Translations under genes and position numbers: made by a program
Notes under the pieces: generated by a model
What the model was told of the DNA's origin: nothing
What the model saw: the letters and a program-made list of their open reading frames with translations, nothing else
The model's database searches: none
In this document: positions 1 to 7,477 of the stretch, piece after piece
Layout of the letters: each line of letters begins with the position of its first letter
How positions within the stretch are numbered: the stretch's first letter is position 1
Source of the DNA: Pseudomonadota bacterium
GTDB lineage: Bacteria > Desulfobacterota > Binatia > UBA9968
Reading direction: 5' to 3'
Assembly: GCA_021324155.1 (NCBI GenBank)
Contig: JAJPJQ010000028.1
Coordinates: forward strand, 1-64,000
Length of the DNA: 64,000 nucleotides

Positions 1-976
1 GCGGCTGCGGCTTGTACTCCGGCGGACGAAAACGGAGCGCGGCGTTGGGGACTTTCAACACGCCCTCTTTGCGGCTCACCATGAACAGGACATTCGCCGT
101 CATTCCGGGCTTGAGAAGGAGGTCTTTATTATCGACGCCGACGACCGCATCGTAGGTGACGACGTTCTGCACCATGATCGGCGCGTTTCGCACCTGCAGA
201 ACTTTGCCGCTGAACCGCCGTGTCGGATAGGCGTCGACGGTGAACTCCGAATCTTGATCGACCCACACGTTGCCGACGTCGCCCTCGCTCACGTTGGTGT
301 CAACCTGCATTTTCGAGAGATCGTTCGCGATCAGGAACAACACCGGCGCCTGGAGCGACGCCGCGACGGTCTGGCCGACGTCAACGTTGCGCGAGACGAC
401 GATGCCGTCGACCGGCGAGCGGATGACGGTATGATCGAGGTCGACCTGCGCCTGCTGCAGCGCCGCCTTGGCGAGCGCCACCTGCGCGCGGCTCACCTGC
501 TCCTGTGCCACGGCGCTGTTGTAGGCGGTCTCGGCGGTGTCGAGATCGCTCTGCGCCACGAGCTCGCGCTTCCGGAGCTCGCGGTTGCGATCGAGGGTCC
601 GTTTCGCGTCCTCGACGGCGACTTTGCTCTTCGCCTCGTTCGCCTGGGAAGACAACACGTTCGCCTTCGCCTGATCGACCGCCGCCTTGAATTTATCCTG
701 ATCGAGCAAGGCGACGATCTGCCCCTGCTTCACCTTGCTGTTGAAGTCCGCATTGAGCTTCGCGATCGTCCCCGAGACCTGGCTGCCGACCTGAACGGTG
801 ATGACGGCCTGGAGCGTTCCCGTGGCGGTAACGACCTGCGTAAGGTTGCCGCTCTGCACGGCGGCGGTGATGTAGGGACTTTCTTTGGCGCCGTCGTGTA
901 TTCCCCAGTAGGCGAAACCAAGCAGGGCGGCGGCGGGTACGATTCCGACGAGGAGAAATTTGCGGTTGCGCTTCAC
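1..976 (-). CDS. HlyD/MacA-type periplasmic adaptor (membrane fusion protein), 3' end outside window
   Basis: About 325 codons are present and the C-terminus runs off the window. The start is GTG at 976 (reads VKRNRKFLLVG), followed by one hydrophobic N-terminal segment, a biotinyl-lipoyl-like half motif (GSQVSGTI), a long coiled coil rich in Ala, Gln and Lys, the second half motif (IRSPVDGIVVSRNVDVGQTV), and the beta-barrel motif LLKPGMTANVLF near the cut end. This order is typical of RND/MacAB efflux adaptors, which bridge an inner-membrane pump to an outer-membrane channel. The start overlaps the stop of the preceding gene by 4 bp (GTGA), so the two are probably translationally coupled. 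The pump itself must lie beyond the window, and the substrate cannot be told from the adaptor. Confidence 0.9.
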   Translation of the reverse strand, partial: MKRNRKFLLVGIVPAAALLGFAYWGIHDGAKESPYITAAVQSGNLTQVVTATGTLQAVITVQVGSQVSGTIAKLNADFNSKVKQGQIVALLDQDKFKAAVDQAKANVLSSQANEAKSKVAVEDAKRTLDRNRELRKRELVAQSDLDTAETAYNSAVAQEQVSRAQVALAKAALQQAQVDLDHTVIRSPVDGIVVSRNVDVGQTVAASLQAPVLFLIANDLSKMQVDTNVSEGDVGNVWVDQDSEFTVDAYPTRRFSGKVLQVRNAPIMVQNVVTYDAVVGVDNKDLLLKPGMTANVLFMVSRKEGVLKVPNAALRFRPPEYKPQP

Positions 977-1446
977 GGCTCCCTGCGCACAGCCTGGTAG
1001 ATTCTATCTACCAGTTCTTCAGTCTCCCTTTTCGGCGTGCGCTCGAACATGACGCCGCTCGTGATCACCGCGTCGGGCTCGAGGTCTTCGAGCAGGTGCT
1101 CCACGGTGATGCGAAACAGCGACATAAATGAAACATCCTCGATCGATTCTCTCAGCTCGTGAGCGCTTCCCTTAACGTAATAGTTGAGATCGCTGTCGGT
1201 GATGAGCAGTGTGATTTTTCCGGAGCGCCGGAGATTTCTTCCCGTGGTGCTCGCTTTGCCGATCGCGAGATCGATCGTCGAGCGGTCCTTCGCGACGACC
1301 TCGGAATAGGACAGCATGCCGGGATGCGGCCATCCCGCCTCGTCGGTCGTGACGATGACGATCGCCTTGCCCTTTTTCGACATCGATTCCCCGCGCAAAC
1401 GATGAAACAACTCCTCCGTCAGCTGATTGCCCAAAAGTTGCGACAT
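973..1446 (-). CDS. Pyridoxamine 5'-phosphate oxidase-like FMN split-barrel protein (1)
   Basis: 157 residues. The core 'IVTTDEAGWPHPGMLSY' resembles the first strands of the PNPOx-like split barrel, where FMN binds at a dimer interface. 'GRNLRRSGKITLLITD' matches the usual second half, where the ligand phosphate contacts basic residues. The family includes FMN- or F420-binding oxidoreductases and haem-degrading proteins, so the substrate is unknown. The start at 1446 was kept because an alpha helix (LTEELFHRL) precedes the barrel; an internal ATG (MSKKGKAIV) is an alternative. It overlaps the HlyD-type gene downstream by 4 bp and lies 46 bp after a second split-barrel gene, in a run of flavin-related genes. 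Confidence 0.75.
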   Translation of the reverse strand: MSQLLGNQLTEELFHRLRGESMSKKGKAIVIVTTDEAGWPHPGMLSYSEVVAKDRSTIDLAIGKASTTGRNLRRSGKITLLITDSDLNYYVKGSAHELRESIEDVSFMSLFRITVEHLLEDLEPDAVITSGVMFERTPKRETEELVDRIYQAVRREP

Positions 1447-1492: not shown

Positions 1493-1975
1493 TCAGTTCT
1501 GCAACTCTTCGGCCGCGAGCTCCTGCCGCTTGCCGAAACCCTGCTCGTTGTCGATGTAAAAGAGCTTCTCGGGCGCGACGCGATAAAATTTGACCTTGAG
1601 AAAAGCCTTGTACAGCGGCCCGCTTCCCGGGTCGGTGAATATTTTCATCACGTCGGGGTATTTCCGCGCGTATACGGTCATCGCCTTGCCCTTTTCGATC
1701 AGCGAATCGACGGCCGCGACGCGCCCTTCGAGTTGAATGCCCTTGATCCTGCGCCAGTCGTGGTAGTCTTCCTGGATCGTCACCGCGACGCGCGGATTGA
1801 CGGCGAGGTTCTGGCAGTGGCGCGAGTCCGGCGCCGAGAAAAAATATAGCTTGAGGCCGTCGCTGGCGTAGAAAACCGTGGCCGCCCAGGGGCTTTCGCC
1901 CTGAGACGTCGCCAGCGTCATGGTATTATGGCTTTCCATGTAATCCAGCACCTGGCGTTTCAGCTCAACGGCCAT
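1493..1975 (-). CDS. Pyridoxamine 5'-phosphate oxidase-like FMN split-barrel protein (2)
   Basis: 160 residues from the ATG at 1975 (MAVELKRQVLDYMES). An open frame continues upstream into the end of fni, but the chosen ATG sits 5 bp after the fni stop and precedes the family's N-terminal helix. Visible family features are 'TMTLATSQGESPWAATVFYA' followed by 'LYFFSAPDSRHCQNLAVNPRVA', the usual pattern of PNPOx-like split-barrel proteins, and a 'VKFYRVAPEKLFYIDNEQGFG' end typical of the HugZ/YhbP-like branch. It is inferred to bind FMN; its substrate is unknown. It sits in a tight series with fni, ubiX and ribK, so it may use the FMN made there. Confidence 0.8.
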   Translation of the reverse strand: MAVELKRQVLDYMESHNTMTLATSQGESPWAATVFYASDGLKLYFFSAPDSRHCQNLAVNPRVAVTIQEDYHDWRRIKGIQLEGRVAAVDSLIEKGKAMTVYARKYPDVMKIFTDPGSGPLYKAFLKVKFYRVAPEKLFYIDNEQGFGKRQELAAEELQN

Positions 1976-1980
1976 GGTTG

Positions 1981-3024
1981 TCACGACCGACGCGCAAGCG
2001 GTGCCTTTTTTAGCGCCGCGAGGTCGCGGGCGCCGACGCACAGCATCGCGACTTTAATTTCCCCTATCAGACCGGCCAGGGATTGTACCACCTTATCGGC
2101 CGATTCCAAAGCCGGAGCTAATAACGGCTGGCCGAGCGCCGCGATGTTCGCCCCGAGCGCGATCGACTTCGCGATGTCGAGGCCGTTGCGAATGCCGCCC
2201 GAAGCCACGAGCTCGATATCCGGCAGCGCCGCGCGCACCTGCACGAGCGCTTCCTCGGTCGGTATGCCCCAGTCGGCAAAGGCGGAGCCGACGGGCTTGC
2301 CCTGCTGGGCGGCGCGCTTCGCCTCGACGGCGTACCACGAGGTGCCGCCGCGGCCGGCGACGTCGATGGCGCTCACGCCGGCCGATTTCAGGCGCCGCGC
2401 GGCGTCGGCGGAGATGCCGAAGCCGATCTCTTTGGCGACGACGGGAGCGCCGAGCTCTGCGCAGACCTCGGCGATGCGTGCCTGCAGGCCTTTGAAATTG
2501 CGATTGCCCTCCGGCTGCGCCGCTTCCTGCAGAACGTTCAAGTGGAGGATCAGTCCGTCCGCGCCGATCATCTCGACGGCGCGACGACACTCGGCGACGC
2601 CGTAGCCGTAGTTGAGCTGCACGGCGCCGAGGTTGGCGAGCAGGAGAATATCGGGGGCGACATCGCGGACCTGAAAGGAATCCGCCGCTCCGGGCACCTC
2701 GAGCGCGACGCGCTGAGAGCCGACGCCCATAGCGAGGCCGAGCTCTTGCGCCGCGGCGGCGAGGTTGCGATTGATCTTGCGCGCGAGCTCGAAGCCGCCG
2801 GTCATCGACGAGATCGAGACCGGCGCCTTGAGGCGCTTGCCGAGAAACGTGGTCGAAAGATCGATCTCGTCGAGGTCGGTCTCGGGCAGTGCGTTGTGGA
2901 CGAAGGCGTAGCGGTCGAAGCCGGTGCCTGAGCCCTCGACCGAAGGATCGAGACAGAGCTCGAGATGTTCCAATTTTCGCCGCTGCGTGGGCGAGAGCGG
3001 CTTTTTACCGCCGGTGCGGGCCAT
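1981..3024 (-). CDS. fni: Type 2 isopentenyl-diphosphate delta-isomerase (FMN- and NADPH-dependent)
   Basis: 347 residues, normal length for IDI-2. The enzyme interconverts IPP and DMAPP in the cytoplasm using reduced FMN and Mg2+. Seen: 'SSMTGGFELARKINRNLA', the 'HLNVLQEAAQPEGNRNF' segment that holds the catalytic glutamine and metal-binding glutamate, 'VAGRGGTSW' and 'GGIRNGLDIAKSIALGA' for FMN phosphate binding in a TIM barrel. It lies 18 bp downstream of ubiX and 5 bp before a split-barrel gene, all on the same strand. DMAPP (after loss of one phosphate) is the prenyl donor for UbiX, so its position next to ubiX is functionally coherent as well as possibly general for isoprenoid synthesis. 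Confidence 0.95.
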   Translation of the reverse strand: MARTGGKKPLSPTQRRKLEHLELCLDPSVEGSGTGFDRYAFVHNALPETDLDEIDLSTTFLGKRLKAPVSISSMTGGFELARKINRNLAAAAQELGLAMGVGSQRVALEVPGAADSFQVRDVAPDILLLANLGAVQLNYGYGVAECRRAVEMIGADGLILHLNVLQEAAQPEGNRNFKGLQARIAEVCAELGAPVVAKEIGFGISADAARRLKSAGVSAIDVAGRGGTSWYAVEAKRAAQQGKPVGSAFADWGIPTEEALVQVRAALPDIELVASGGIRNGLDIAKSIALGANIAALGQPLLAPALESADKVVQSLAGLIGEIKVAMLCVGARDLAALKKAPLARRS

Positions 3025-3042
3025 GGCGGGGTCGCGCGAAGA

Positions 3043-3687
3043 TTACTTGCTTTTCTTCGCCGGCCGCATGTCCTTCCGCGACGCCACTGAGATGACCCGC
3101 TCGGAGCCCGGATGCCGGCCCATCTTCTCGTCGCTCCAGCGCTCGAAGAGCGTCACGTCGATATCGAACTGATCTAAGATCCGCGTAACGGTCTGGTTGA
3201 TGACGTCGTCGAGCGTCTTCGGCCGGTGGTAGAAGGCCGGCACGGGCGGGAAGATGACCGCACCCATACGCGTGAGCGCCGCCATGCTTTCGAGGTGGCC
3301 GAGATGCAGCGGCGTCTCGCGCGCGACCAGCACGAGCTTTTTGCGCTCTTTCAAAACCACGTCGGCGGCGCGGACCAGAAGATCGCCGCCGATCGAATGC
3401 GCGATGCCGCCCATCGATTTCATCGAGCACGGCGCGATCACCATTCCTTCGGTGCGGAACGAGCCGCTCGAGATGCTGGCGCCGACATTGCTGATGTCGT
3501 GCACCACGTCGGCCATCGCCTCGACCTCCTTCACGGAGTGAGGCGTCTCGACCTGGATCGTCATCTTCGCGGCGCGGCTCATGACGAGATGCGTCTCGAC
3601 GTCCTTGACGCGCGCTAGCACCTCGAGCATGCGCACGCCGTAAATCGCTCCCGTCGCCCCGGAGATGCCCACAATGAGTCTTCGCAT
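3043..3687 (-). CDS. ubiX: Flavin prenyltransferase UbiX
   Basis: 214 residues. UbiX joins a dimethylallyl group from DMAP to FMNH2 to give prenylated FMN, the cofactor of UbiD-type decarboxylases. Seen: N-terminal 'RRLIVGISGATGAIYGVRML', the FMN-binding Rossmann-like loop; 'SSGSFRTEGMVIAPCSMKSM' with the conserved S-x-PCS-x-K segment; and 'LVLVARETPLHLGHLE', the R-E-T-P-x-H motif. No UbiD partner is in the window. It starts 6 bp after ribK ends and is followed 18 bp later by fni. This neighbourhood supplies FMN and DMAPP, so a prenyl-FMN-dependent decarboxylase elsewhere in the genome is expected. Confidence 0.96.
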   Translation of the reverse strand: MRRLIVGISGATGAIYGVRMLEVLARVKDVETHLVMSRAAKMTIQVETPHSVKEVEAMADVVHDISNVGASISSGSFRTEGMVIAPCSMKSMGGIAHSIGGDLLVRAADVVLKERKKLVLVARETPLHLGHLESMAALTRMGAVIFPPVPAFYHRPKTLDDVINQTVTRILDQFDIDVTLFERWSDEKMGRHPGSERVISVASRKDMRPAKKSK

Positions 3688-3693
3688 AACGCC

Positions 3694-4086
3694 TCAGTCG
3701 ACGAATTCTAGCGTCAGTCGCGCGCCGTCCGCAAGCTTGAGCGCGTCCTTCAACCTGGCCGGCGCGACGATTTCGAGCTTGTCCGCCGGATAGTCCGCCA
3801 CCTCAGGTAGGATCACGGCGCCGCGCCAGTTTCCCTCAATCAAGGCCGGAAAACAACGGGCGGCGCAGAAGCCGCCGGCGGCGATCGGGATGCCGCTCCC
3901 ATCGCGAACGCTGCTCCACACCGCGCGCGCTGCGGGAGTGTCGAGCCTCACATTCAGCGTTCCTGGATAAGCGGCGAAGCCGAGCGCGGCCCTCATCGCC
4001 GCCGCGACGCTGTCGACGGCCATGAACGACGCCGCCCGGCCGAGGTCACTGAACACCACCCCGGTCAATTTCCTCTTCGCCCCCAT
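3694..4086 (-). CDS. ribK: Archaeal-type CTP-dependent riboflavin kinase (DUF120/RibK-like)
   Basis: 130 residues, the size of the stand-alone archaeal RibK domain. That family makes FMN from riboflavin using CTP instead of ATP. Seen: 'LTGVVFSDLGRAASFM' as the entry strand, 'AYPGTLNVRLD' (family hallmark PYPGTLNV, here with Ala for the first Pro), 'GAVILPEVADYPADKLEIVAP' and 'LKDALKLADGARLTLEF' at the end, in the family's order. It shows no resemblance to bacterial RibF. It lies 6 bp upstream of ubiX on the same strand, so FMN supply for prenylation is the likely role. Substrate and nucleotide preference are inferred from family resemblance. A heptamer-repeat array begins directly before its ATG. 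Confidence 0.78.
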   Translation of the reverse strand: MGAKRKLTGVVFSDLGRAASFMAVDSVAAAMRAALGFAAYPGTLNVRLDTPAARAVWSSVRDGSGIPIAAGGFCAARCFPALIEGNWRGAVILPEVADYPADKLEIVAPARLKDALKLADGARLTLEFVD

Positions 4087-4172: not shown

Positions 4173-4937
4173 TTATTTGCCGGATAGCGACTTCGCCTGC
4201 CCGCCGCGGCGGACCTTGACGACTTCCGCCATAATCGACAGCGCGATCTCCTCGGGCGTCTCGGTCCCGATGTCGAGCCCGATCGGCGCGTAGACGCGCG
4301 CGATCACTTCCTCGGCGATCTTCTCCTCGTTCTTGAATCGCTCGAAACATGCCTTGATGCGCCGGCGACTGCCGATCATGCCGACGTACTTCGCGCTGCT
4401 GTGGATGATCTCGCGCAGGCATGGCTCGTCGTACTTGTGCCCGCGCGTGATGAGCACGATGTAAGTCGACGGCGTGATCGCCGTCGACTTCAGCTCCTCG
4501 GCCATATCGCCGACGCGGATCGCGTCGGCGTCGGGGAAGCGCTCCCGGTTGGCGAACAGGATGCGGTCGTCGAGCACGGTAACGTGGAAATCGAGGATCT
4601 TGGCGATCTTCGCGAGCGGGACGGCGATGTGGCCGGCGCCGACGATGATCAGCTTCGGGGGCGCCGGCAGTACCTCGAAGAATACCTCGGCGGCGGCGCC
4701 GCCCGCGAGCTTCAGCGGGACGAGTTTCGACTTCTCTTCCTTTAATCGCTCCGCGGCTTCGGCGATCACCGCAGCCGTGAGCCGCTCGTCGCCGAGCGTG
4801 CCCAGCACCGCGCGGCCGTCGCGGATGAGGATTTTTTCTCCCGCCTGCGCGCCGCCGTCCGCTTCCACGACGGTCGCCAGCACGCCGGCTGCGCCCTCCT
4901 CCTGAATATTGATCAGCTCGTCGACCAGACTGGCCAT
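4173..4937 (-). CDS. xdhC: XdhC/CoxI family protein with C-terminal Rossmann domain
   Basis: 254 residues from ATG 4937, which lies 8 bp after the preceding stop; the frame is open further upstream but would overlap that gene. Residues 1-90 look like a worn XdhC N-terminal domain (the usual GG-x-C/E motif is missing). From about residue 95 comes a clear Rossmann domain, 'LIIVGAGHIAVPLAKIAKIL', then 'YIVLITRGHKYDEPCLREII' and 'YVGMIGSRRRIKACFE', then 'IGLDIGTETPEEIALSIMAE', all standard for XdhC. The family helps load the sulfurated molybdenum cofactor into xanthine-dehydrogenase/CO-dehydrogenase-type hydroxylases. Its neighbours (second XdhC protein, VWA protein, MoxR ATPase) fit a Mo-hydroxylase maturation set, but no hydroxylase subunits are in view. 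Confidence 0.92.
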   Translation of the reverse strand: MASLVDELINIQEEGAAGVLATVVEADGGAQAGEKILIRDGRAVLGTLGDERLTAAVIAEAAERLKEEKSKLVPLKLAGGAAAEVFFEVLPAPPKLIIVGAGHIAVPLAKIAKILDFHVTVLDDRILFANRERFPDADAIRVGDMAEELKSTAITPSTYIVLITRGHKYDEPCLREIIHSSAKYVGMIGSRRRIKACFERFKNEEKIAEEVIARVYAPIGLDIGTETPEEIALSIMAEVVKVRRGGQAKSLSGK

Positions 4938-4945
4938 GGGCTCGT

Positions 4946-5323
4946 CTATCTCGCCTCTTCCTTCGACCACGCCTCGATGAAAACGTTCATGATGCCGCCG
5001 CACACGGCCGGGCTGTCGGAAGCGATGTCGTCGAGCAGGTCGACCTGCACGGTGCGCGGCTTGCGCGTGCGGATCACCTCGATCGCCTCGCGCTTGACGT
5101 CCGCCTCGCCGCAGCCGCCGCCGATCGTGCCGAGAATCTCGCCCCAGGCGGTGACGACCATTTTGGCGCCGACCTCGCGCGGCGTCGAGCCTTTCGTCGA
5201 GACGATCGTCGCGACGGCGAGCGTTTCGCCTTTGTCGAGAAACTCTTTCACCTGATGATAGATCGAATCCTTCTTCGGTCCTTCGACTTTATCCGCGTCG
5301 TGGCATGCGCCGGGTCCAGCCAT
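4946..5323 (-). CDS. XdhC/CoxI N-terminal domain protein (single-domain)
   Basis: 125 residues, only the N-terminal XdhC_CoxI domain. 'ATIVSTKGSTPREVGAKMVV' and 'ILGTIGGGCGEADVKREAIE' are the conserved segments, with the Cys (GGGC) proposed in the family to take part in cofactor handling. 'SPAVCGGIMNVFIE' closes the domain. A strong AGGAGG lies 6 bases before the ATG at 5323. The neighbouring 254-residue protein keeps the Rossmann domain but has lost this motif, so the pair looks like one functional unit divided between two polypeptides. Confidence 0.9.
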   Translation of the reverse strand: MAGPGACHDADKVEGPKKDSIYHQVKEFLDKGETLAVATIVSTKGSTPREVGAKMVVTAWGEILGTIGGGCGEADVKREAIEVIRTRKPRTVQVDLLDDIASDSPAVCGGIMNVFIEAWSKEEAR

Positions 5324-5344
5324 GGAAAACCTCCTATCTATGTT

Positions 5345-6553
5345 CTATGCCACCATTCTCTGCAGGTTTCTGCCCAGCGCGACCAGACTGTTCAGGTTGT
5401 TCACGGACAGGAACAGGTCGAGATACGGCAGCGCCGCCTGCATTCCTTTGCAAAGCGGCTCGTAATTTTCGCTCGCGAGCAGCGGATTCAACCACAGAAT
5501 CTTGTAGCAGCGCCGTTTGATCGATTGCATCTCGTGCTCCAGCAGCGACACGTCGCCGCGGTCCCAGCCGTCGCTGATGATCACCACGACGGTGCGGTGC
5601 GTCACCAAAGTCGGCGCGAAGTCGCGATTGAAGGTCGCGAGCGAGCGCCCGATGTTCGTGCCGCCGGACCAGCCGACGACCGAATGCGAGATGCGCTCGA
5701 GCGCTCCGGCGATCTCCTTGGTGCGGATGAGATGCGTGATGCGGCTGAGCGAAGTGCTGAACACGAACGTTTCGACGCCCCAGAGCTCGTTCTGCAGGCC
5801 GTACATGAACTGGATCAAAAACCGGCTGTAGCAGTCCATCGAGCCCGAGACGTCGCAGAGCAGCACCACGCGCGTCTTTTTGATGCGCCGCTTGCGCTTG
5901 ACGAGCTCGACGACTTCGCCGCCGTACTTAAGGCTTTTCCGCATGGTCCAGCGGGCGTCGACCTGCTGGCCCTTACTCGAGCGCTTTTTGCGCCGGCTCA
6001 TCTGCGTCGCGATCTTAGTCGCTATGAGAAGGATCGCGCGGCTGATCGCGCGGCTCTCCTCAATGCCGAGGTCGCTGAAGTCTTTTTTGCTGAGCGACTC
6101 GCCGGGGCTGTAGGTCGGCAGCGTGAGCGGCTCGGTCTCGCCGTCGCGCCCCGTTTCGGCGCCAGCGAACTCGGCCATGATCTGCTCGGTGCTTTCGGTC
6201 TCGCTGCCGTCCTCGATGTCTGCGTCGTCGGGCGGCAGCGGGACATCCGAGGGCGCGTTCGGGTCCACGTCCGAGCGCGCGCGCCAGAAAAGATCGAACG
6301 CGCGGTCGAAGATCGGCATCTGCTCCTTATCGGAAATCAGGTTCGCACGCAGCGCCGCGCGAAACTCGTAGCGGCTGCCGACATCCACATAATGCAGCGA
6401 GCGATTGGAGTCGAGCACCTGGCTCAAGCCGATGGTCACACCGAGACCCTTGAGCACGCGGCTGAAGGCGAGGATGTTCGTGACCGTGCCGCCGCCGCCC
6501 CGGGGCGCGAAGCGCTCGACTGTTTTTGCGATCAGCTCGTCGGTGATGTCCAT
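5345..6553 (-). CDS. CoxE-like von Willebrand factor A domain protein
   Basis: 402 residues. The C-terminal half is a VWA domain with the metal-binding site 'LLCDVSGSMDCYSRF' (D-x-S-G-S) near residue 230, 'SGGTNIGRSLATF' supplying the Thr, and 'VVIISDGWDRGD' supplying the Asp. The N-terminal half (VTNILAFSRVLKGLGV, then acidic linkers) matches the CoxE family. In carboxydotrophs CoxD (a MoxR ATPase) and CoxE act together after translation to assemble the Cu/Mo site of CO dehydrogenase; similar pairs serve other Mo hydroxylases. Here the MoxR gene ends 6 bp upstream and XdhC genes follow, so the same role is inferred. Confidence 0.9.
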   Translation of the reverse strand: MDITDELIAKTVERFAPRGGGGTVTNILAFSRVLKGLGVTIGLSQVLDSNRSLHYVDVGSRYEFRAALRANLISDKEQMPIFDRAFDLFWRARSDVDPNAPSDVPLPPDDADIEDGSETESTEQIMAEFAGAETGRDGETEPLTLPTYSPGESLSKKDFSDLGIEESRAISRAILLIATKIATQMSRRKKRSSKGQQVDARWTMRKSLKYGGEVVELVKRKRRIKKTRVVLLCDVSGSMDCYSRFLIQFMYGLQNELWGVETFVFSTSLSRITHLIRTKEIAGALERISHSVVGWSGGTNIGRSLATFNRDFAPTLVTHRTVVVIISDGWDRGDVSLLEHEMQSIKRRCYKILWLNPLLASENYEPLCKGMQAALPYLDLFLSVNNLNSLVALGRNLQRMVA

Positions 6554-6559
6554 GAAAAA

Positions 6560-7477
6560 TTAAAGCGACTGCGCGCTCTTCGCCGTTCCGTCGAGATCTA
6601 TCTTTTTCGCTGCGAGCTGCTCGGCGACATGGTTCAAGTCCTCGCGGTACTTGAAAACGCAGCCGACGGTTTCCCTGATGGTCTCCTCGTCGAGCTCGTC
6701 GCGGTTCAGCGCGAGCAGCGCCGAAGCCCAGTCGAGCGTCTCGGCGACGCCCGGCCGCTTGTAGAAGTTCATCTGCCGCACCTGCTGCATGAACGCGCAG
6801 ATCTGATCGGCGAGGTGCCCGCGCATCGCCGGAAATTTCGCGCTGACGATCTCGTGCTCCTTCTCGAAGCTCGGGTAATCGATCCAATGATACAGGCACC
6901 GGCGCTTGAGCGCGTCGTGAATCTCGCGCGTCCGGTTCGATGTTAGCACGACGTACGGTCGGACCCGCGCGCGGATCGTCCCGAGTTCGGGAATCGTGAT
7001 TTGAAAGTCGGACAGCACTTCCAGGAGAAACGCTTCAAACTCCATGTCCGCGCGGTCGATCTCGTCTATCAGAAGAACAGGCGCGATGGATCCCTCGCTC
7101 TGGATCGCCTCGAGCAGGGGCCGCTTGACGAGGTATTCAGGGCTGAAGATCTCGGTCTCGACAGCCGTGCGGTCGCCGGCCGTCACCTCTTCGAGCTTGA
7201 TGCGGAGCATCTGCTTGGGATAGTTCCACTCGTACAGCGCGGTATTCGCGTCGAGCCCTTCGTAGCACTGGAGGCGGATGAGCTTGCTGCCCATGATCTC
7301 CGCCAATACTTTGGCGACCTCGGTTTTGCCGACGCCCGCTTCGCCCTCGAGCAGGAGCGGCTTTCCCATTGCGATGGAAAGATAAACTACGGTCGCGAGC
7401 GCCCGGTCGGCGATGTACTTCTCTTTTCTAAGCGCTTCCTGAATTTTGTCGATCGACAGGTTGTCGGAATCCTTCAC
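6560..7477 (-). CDS. MoxR-family AAA+ ATPase (CoxD-like)
   Basis: 305 residues, GTG start at 7477 with GGAGAAGGGG upstream. Walker A 'GEAGVGKT' is at residues 45-52, Walker B 'VLLIDEIDRADMEFEAFLLE' near 140, the sensor-1 Asn in 'VVLTSNRTREIHDALKRRC', which also supplies the arginine fingers, and a C-terminal lid. MoxR ATPases are chaperones that work with VWA proteins on metal-cofactor enzymes; CoxD is the member next to CoxE. It is the first gene of the ten-gene minus-strand run to position 1. A TATGAT box at 7524-7529 on the minus strand is a possible -10 but lacks a good -35. Confidence 0.93.
   Translation of the reverse strand: MKDSDNLSIDKIQEALRKEKYIADRALATVVYLSIAMGKPLLLEGEAGVGKTEVAKVLAEIMGSKLIRLQCYEGLDANTALYEWNYPKQMLRIKLEEVTAGDRTAVETEIFSPEYLVKRPLLEAIQSEGSIAPVLLIDEIDRADMEFEAFLLEVLSDFQITIPELGTIRARVRPYVVLTSNRTREIHDALKRRCLYHWIDYPSFEKEHEIVSAKFPAMRGHLADQICAFMQQVRQMNFYKRPGVAETLDWASALLALNRDELDEETIRETVGCVFKYREDLNHVAEQLAAKKIDLDGTAKSAQSL

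Follow-up and report, generated by a model that had tools for sequence, protein, structure and literature searches.

The window analysed here is the whole stretch of 64,000 nucleotides at positions 1 to 64,000 (forward strand) of contig JAJPJQ010000028.1, assembly GCA_021324155.1, from a bacterium of the uncultured order UBA9968 in the class Binatia. Based on sequence comparison, the minus-strand genes ribK-ubiX-fni-pnpA-pnpB of this window probably form an operon for the supply and maturation of prenylated flavin mononucleotide (prenyl-FMN, prFMN) that serves a large set of UbiD enzymes. prFMN is the cofactor of the UbiD (de)carboxylases and is made by UbiX. The five genes are separated by gaps of 6, 18, 5 and 46 bp:

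3694-4086, minus strand: ribK, putative RibK-like (DUF120) riboflavin kinase of the cytidine triphosphate (CTP) type, 130 aa (PF01982 84.5 bits, cut-off 25)
3043-3687, minus strand: ubiX, UbiX flavin prenyltransferase, 214 aa (NF004685 280.7 bits, cut-off 188; TIGR00421 239.2, cut-off 108.9)
1981-3024, minus strand: fni, Fni, type 2 isopentenyl-diphosphate isomerase, which converts isopentenyl diphosphate (IPP) to dimethylallyl diphosphate (DMAPP), 347 aa (TIGR02151 413.7, cut-off 281.3)
1493-1975, minus strand: pnpA, FMN split-barrel protein of PNPOx-like type, which may reduce or carry flavin (PF01243 55.7 bits)
973-1446, minus strand: pnpB, PhdC-like split-barrel protein, candidate prFMN maturase (profile, fold and Glu likeness to PhdC)

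The start of pnpA was placed at the ATG at 1975; the mechanically called open reading frame, 1493-2041, begins at a GTG inside fni. An earlier reading of this DNA, made without database searches (the sequence-only reading), had described a prenyl-FMN supply module here, and its gaps, coordinates and strands all proved correct on recount. The two split-barrel genes it placed 5 and 46 bp on are confirmed, although pnpB falls outside the range of 1493-4086 that it gave for the cluster.

The run was compared across 35 genomes of the order, that of the window included, with 23 other genomes of the class, and gene order was followed in 33 RibK neighbourhoods of relatives (G001-G034 minus G023). ubiX lies directly after ribK on the same strand at all 33 loci, although L071 keeps just 22 ubiX residues before a contig end and a stretch of N separates the two genes in L064; with the starts chosen by script, the two genes overlap by 4 bp in 11 of the 33. 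The order is thus not unique to this contig, and because ubiX follows ribK at every one of these loci the linkage is more than chance. Families f1 and f2 contribute 24 loci, of which 23 have fni after ubiX and one (L048) is cut inside ubiX. None of the nine f3 loci has fni there, and in the eight of these that are uncut the gene after ubiX is pnpA. PnpA and PnpB were each detected in 27/33 loci, and five of the six loci lacking PnpA are cut by contig ends. Within the class, the occurrence of the genes separates the order from the other genomes. All genomes of the order but G023 have a PF01982 match (34/35, of which 33 score over the cut-off), against 0/23 of the others. A UbiX-sized PF02441 match is present in 33/35 order genomes (not G023 and G031), none of which holds two full-length copies, while the sole type of PF02441 match in the 23 outsiders sits in a frame of at least 402 aa, with no stand-alone UbiX. 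UbiD matches number 16-44 per genome in 35/35 order genomes against 0/23 outsiders; about 43 UbiD candidates were scored per genome, so the high counts are lower bounds. One relative, G008 (8.3 Mb, 9% contamination), has 125 UbiD candidates, of which 43 were scored and 43/43 matched, and may hold a still larger set.

In the window's own genome (4.8 Mb, 98% complete), UbiD was matched 41 times and UbiX once; the only other PF02441 match there is a CoaBC-sized frame of 403 aa. The sequence-only reading had remarked that UbiD is absent from the window, which is true, as none of the 41 lies on this contig (C14), and misleading, because the genome holds 41. A missing UbiD as the sign of a new user of prFMN was rejected for the same reason. 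Forty of the 41 sequences were aligned, the one left out being a contig-end fragment; 37 stretches had given 53 frames, of which 13, lying antisense or next to a UbiD, were discarded manually. In the columns assigned by motif to what we take to be the catalytic Glu-Arg-Glu/Asp network, Arg is present in 37 of the 40, the first Glu/Asp in 38 and the last Glu/Asp in 39. The median pairwise identity is 28%, and 2 of 780 pairs exceed 60%, therefore the set is diverse and does not stem from a recent burst. Of ten genes chosen in the neighbourhood of UbiDs on two contigs, eight encode periplasmic binding proteins of the NMT1, SBP or TctC type, one a luciferase-like monooxygenase and one an amidohydrolase, which hints at the catabolism of imported acids.

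Linkage of RibK and UbiX also extends beyond the order. A genome scan with the RibK alignment was evaluated for its best 80 loci, namely 10 of this order (titled 'Candidatus Binatia' or 'Deltaproteobacteria' and lying on the same contigs as the compared relatives), 17 of other bacteria and 53 of archaea. Within the flanks examined, UbiX adjoins RibK in 11/17 other-bacterial and 0/53 archaeal loci (Fisher 6e-9, a guide only, as the loci were selected for their similarity to RibK of the window and several of them are closely related); one archaeal locus has UbiX 2.1 kb from RibK on the other strand. The 11 loci belong to Rhodocyclales and other Pseudomonadota, Nitrospinota, Chloroflexota and Thermincola, and all 17 other-bacterial genomes have UbiD (3-15 matches) together with a UbiX-sized protein. 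On plasmid pAZKH of Azoarcus sp. KH32C the order is ppcB-ppcD-ppcA-ppcG-ubiD-ubiX-DUF120-NUDIX, with a 4-bp overlap of ubiX and the DUF120 gene. In Chloroflexi FW602_bin.16 (L093), UbiX (residues 17-188) and RibK (217-336) are joined in a single frame of 344 residues; this is one case in a metagenome-assembled genome (MAG) and could be a frameshift. PF01982 occurs in 8/400 Chloroflexota genomes, FW602_bin.16 included, and in these eight loci UbiX is fused to RibK once and adjacent on the opposite strand twice, a PnpA homologue comes after ribK in three, and two have neither.

Several features of these loci stand by themselves. At the three Chloroflexota loci L166, L167 and L168 the PnpA homologue (45-48% identity) lies directly after ribK, with no ubiX match in the stretch examined. 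In ubiX clusters of Rhodocyclales the gene after ribK encodes a NUDIX hydrolase (L082:2338-3027; L211:12443-12988), and one might speculate that this enzyme sets the balance between DMAPP and dimethylallyl phosphate (DMAP). Fusions of RibK with a HAD phosphatase domain occur in both orders in four bacteria (L081:5302-6417, L099:6010-7053, L112:469-1584 and L164:6271-7383); a link of these fusions to the phenylphosphate carboxylase delta subunit was considered and not shown.

The RibK match to PF01982 spans profile positions 1-120 of 121, and the nearest solved structure is the riboflavin kinase MJ0056. T43-L44-N45 and E105 are invariant across 21 sequences of the order and aligned to identical letters in MJ0056; Thr and Asn belong to a G-T-L-N motif in which they are presumably metal ligands. 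As RibF (PF01687) is present in 35/35 order genomes, RibK would be a second riboflavin kinase. A RibK tree of 70 rows and 134 columns, for which no root was inferred, drew on 12 of the 33 loci of the order, the 17 other named bacteria in full, seven Chloroflexota stretches and 33 of the 53 archaeal loci. In this tree 36 of the 37 rows from bacteria cluster together with support (96/88), nested among the archaeal rows and neighbouring three Bathyarchaeota (support 96/95), and L169, on a very long branch, falls outside this group. The simplest reading would be a single passage of RibK from archaea to bacteria.

On the side of the prenyl donor, the available text of PMC6541611 describes AnUbiX, which has Q203 at the position of the beta-phosphate, as DMAPP-specific and PaUbiX, which has F181 there, as DMAP-specific, and reports that some UbiX enzymes take DMAP. 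UbiX of the window has Q165 at the position of AnUbiX Q203. The same Gln is found in 30/30 readable order loci (L048 and L071 are cut before the residue and L064 was left out) and in 11/11 RibK-linked bacterial UbiX, whereas archaeal L114 lacks it. A DMAPP-type Gln fits with the adjoining Fni, whose nearest solved structure is 2zru. Exactly one TIGR02151 match over the cut-off is present in 24/26 f1 and f2 genomes, and the other two, G010 and G024, hold only cut copies. The genome of the window also encodes GcpE, so the methylerythritol phosphate (MEP) pathway is likely and the isomerase not strictly required; Fni would then shift the balance of IPP and DMAPP rather than enable isoprenoid synthesis.

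As for the split-barrel proteins, the sequence-only suggestion that they handle flavin is strengthened for PnpB. The best sequence matches of the PnpB family profile in the PDB are PhdC structures (9srg, E 3.4e-7; 9nk0, E 4e-7), and PhdC is described as a prFMN maturase in the available text of PMC13040415. E49 of PnpB is invariant in 7/7 family members and aligned to a Glu of PhdC that has been replaced by Ala in chain 9nk3, an entry titled E45A mutant; by residue count this is the active-site Glu47 of the paper (PMC13040415, as far as its available text goes). The predicted model of PnpB matches PhdC with Z 9.7-10.6 over 132-138 residues, and other split barrels reach Z of at most 8.5, save 2htd with 10.3 over 107 residues and 2q9k (see below). 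The HMMER alignment of PnpB with PhdC stops at PhdC residue 90, short of Glu136 in the C-terminal ExW motif. The invariant E120, D121 and E123 of PnpB may be the counterpart of this Glu136; YclD lacks the Trp of the motif according to the same partly available source (PMC13040415). PnpA, whose model has a predicted local distance difference test score (pLDDT) of 84.9, matches PNPOx/HugZ-like split barrels, and it may have a role in flavin handling. A kinship of PnpA with PhdC was also considered and is not supported, since its profile matches 3ec6, 2hq9 and others and not PhdC, and its fold is that of general PNPOx/HugZ-type proteins among the best 50 rows.

A weakly related split barrel follows ribK in six Rhodocyclales MAG loci. 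Its reading as a PhdC orthologue is not supported, because the Glu is Trp in the five that were aligned (L083 was left out) and PhdC was matched at E 0.39 only. The copy at L082 has a weak NF005232 match in common with PnpB, and no split-barrel gene was seen at locus L111 of the same group.

Taken as one pathway, RibK would convert riboflavin to FMN independently of the ordinary RibF pathway, Fni would raise DMAPP from IPP, and UbiX would join reduced FMN and DMAPP to give prFMNH2. PnpB might then oxidise this fully to the active iminium species or rescue the dead-end radical, and PnpA might supply or carry reduced flavin. The supply module proposed from sequence is upheld by the ribK-ubiX order and by the family profile and motif of RibK; the word 'self-contained' applied to it was too strong, as the source of reduced FMN is not pinned down and ordinary RibF is also present. 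A more far-reaching proposal, which we put forward as tentative, is that the archaea-derived RibK is a dedicated branch whose FMN stays out of the general pool of RibF and flavin adenine dinucleotide (FAD) and is channelled to UbiX and then to a PhdC-like maturase, one UbiX feeding dozens of UbiDs; in one Chloroflexota genome the hand-over would even take place within the single UbiX-RibK polypeptide.

Several observations weigh against the operon reading. RibF already makes FMN, which leaves the need for RibK unexplained. RibK, named a riboflavin kinase in the sequence-only reading and agreeing with that name in its profile and its conserved T-L-N and Glu, misses two NCBIfam equivalog cut-offs (NF040694, 50.3 vs 168; NF010762, 71.2 vs 279), and because of these scores it is filed as a member of PF01982 and not under either equivalog. 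Six of the 17 other bacterial RibKs are not beside UbiX, three of them being HAD-fused, and five of the eight Chloroflexota loci have no adjacent UbiX, while two of the other three have it on the opposite strand. Ten bacterial control genomes contain UbiD in six and RibK in none, so UbiD bacteria do not as a rule require RibK; likewise, 391 plasmid records match the UbiX-RibK fusion and just one (Azoarcus) covers 80% of it, which means that the majority of UbiX genes are not next to a RibK gene. The cluster was also said to cover both precursor branches. In the window Fni is confirmed by its TIGR02151 score, and TIGR02151 is over the cut-off in 0/9 f3 genomes, so fni is lineage-specific, and Fni as an essential part was rejected for that family. 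Nor is Fni specific to prFMN, because 6/23 class outsiders have Fni without UbiX. L061 (G020) has no pnpA or pnpB within 6 kb after fni. The PnpB model has a middling pLDDT of 73.5, the ExW motif of PhdC was not located in it, and 2q9k, a protein of unknown function, fits it better than PhdC (Z 13.6); Foldseek ranked 2q9k and 2htd before PhdC, with an E-value below 0.001 for 2q9k only.

Some of these points would suit a RibK that is a general second flavokinase for the FMN pool and lies beside ubiX only as a fellow flavin gene, with no dedicated role in prFMN beyond that of UbiX. The RibKs away from ubiX agree with it, as do the three Chloroflexota RibKs that adjoin a pnpA homologue instead of ubiX, and no paper that links RibK with prFMN was found in the literature searched. 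We consider this explanation unlikely, for RibF is kept in every genome of the order, RibK co-occurs with UbiX and UbiD within the class, and RibK and UbiX lie side by side in several phyla, with either gene first, and are fused in one case. Another explanation is that RibK changed its substrate and phosphorylates, for example, dimethylallyl alcohol (to DMAP) or prenylated riboflavin on the way to prFMN. The cellular source of DMAP is, to our knowledge, unclear, and RibF makes the supply of FMN by RibK look redundant; the use of DMAP by certain UbiX enzymes (PMC6541611, in its available text) points the same way. Given the invariant T-L-N and Glu positions of RibK, the Gln that UbiX has in common with DMAPP-specific AnUbiX and an adjoining Fni that would supply DMAPP, a changed substrate is quite improbable.

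The genes upstream of ribK, which are conserved neighbours, are as follows:

4173-5003, minus strand: C-terminal half of XdhC, directly upstream of ribK (PF13478 157.1 bits)
4946-5323, minus strand: N-terminal half of XdhC/CoxI (PF02625 87.9 bits)
5345-6553, minus strand: CoxE-type VWA protein (PF05762 208.9 bits)
6560-7477, minus strand: MadB/CoxD-type AAA ATPase, with which the conserved run begins (NF047784 282.2 bits, below the cut-off of 475)
7551-7524, minus strand: promoter-like site ahead of madB (consensus match only)

That the cluster mainly serves molybdenum-hydroxylase maturation, with the flavin genes as passengers, is highly improbable: madB-coxE-xdhC-xdhC does precede ribK in the order loci where the contig reaches, and on two plasmids of Rhizobiaceae the genes ubiD-ubiX-xdhC adjoin xanthine dehydrogenase, but both of these include a ubiD too, ribK-ubiX occurs without an xdhC match in the examined flanks in Rhodocyclales, Thermincola and Chloroflexota, and we know of no role of UbiX or PhdC in molybdenum enzymes. 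The placement of the MadB/CoxD, CoxE and split XdhC genes (4173-7477, minus strand) ahead of ribK leaves a link between prFMN and molybdenum-hydroxylase maturation unexplained.

In a literature search with most subscription journals outside its coverage, no paper was found that joins riboflavin kinase, UbiX and prenylated FMN, that pairs Binatota with UbiD or phenylphosphate carboxylase with riboflavin kinase, or that treats a DUF120 riboflavin kinase in bacteria. Riboflavin kinase and UbiX occur together in four papers, which to judge from their titles deal with other subjects. Three papers on benzene and phthalate (PMC5852087, PMC13101534, PMC8269228) contain no occurrence of 'riboflavin'. 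The provision and maturation of prFMN is a practical bottleneck, and some UbiDs, including that of E. coli, have not been obtained active with UbiX alone according to the available text of PMC10865409 and PMC13040415. The operon proposes a fuller list of parts, i.e., a flavokinase, a source of DMAPP, UbiX and split-barrel accessory proteins. An order with 16-44 UbiDs per genome may also be a source of new (de)carboxylases, and the linkage suggests a function for the 'DUF120' genes of bacteria with phenylphosphate carboxylase clusters.

Among known systems, the phdABC operon of Mycolicibacterium fortuitum (UbiD, UbiX and the PhdC maturase) resembles the window in that UbiX shares an operon with a split-barrel protein, which is the maturase there (PMC13040415, available text) and the PhdC-like PnpB here. 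It differs in that the window has no ubiD, 41 being elsewhere in the genome, and adds ribK, fni and a second split barrel; according to that paper, a BLAST search gave 86 PhdC-like sequences, every one from Actinomycetota. In Rhodocyclales, phenylphosphate carboxylase clusters (Azoarcus KH32C pAZKH and Sulfuritalea MAGs) likewise place ubiX next to a RibK that belongs to the same bacterial group, and differ from the window by ubiD genes inside the cluster, a NUDIX gene after ribK, no fni match, and a split barrel with Trp in place of the PhdC Glu. LpdD, a chaperone of prFMNH2, is also a dedicated accessory protein for loading UbiD with prFMN, and its fold is like that of the proteasome chaperone Pba3-Pba4 and not a split barrel, unlike PnpA and PnpB (PMC10865409, available text). 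Finally, the archaeal CTP-dependent riboflavin kinase MJ0056 has its Pfam family and conserved motif in common with RibK of the window, which, unlike MJ0056, belongs to the bacterial group, would be a second kinase beside RibF and is linked to ubiX.

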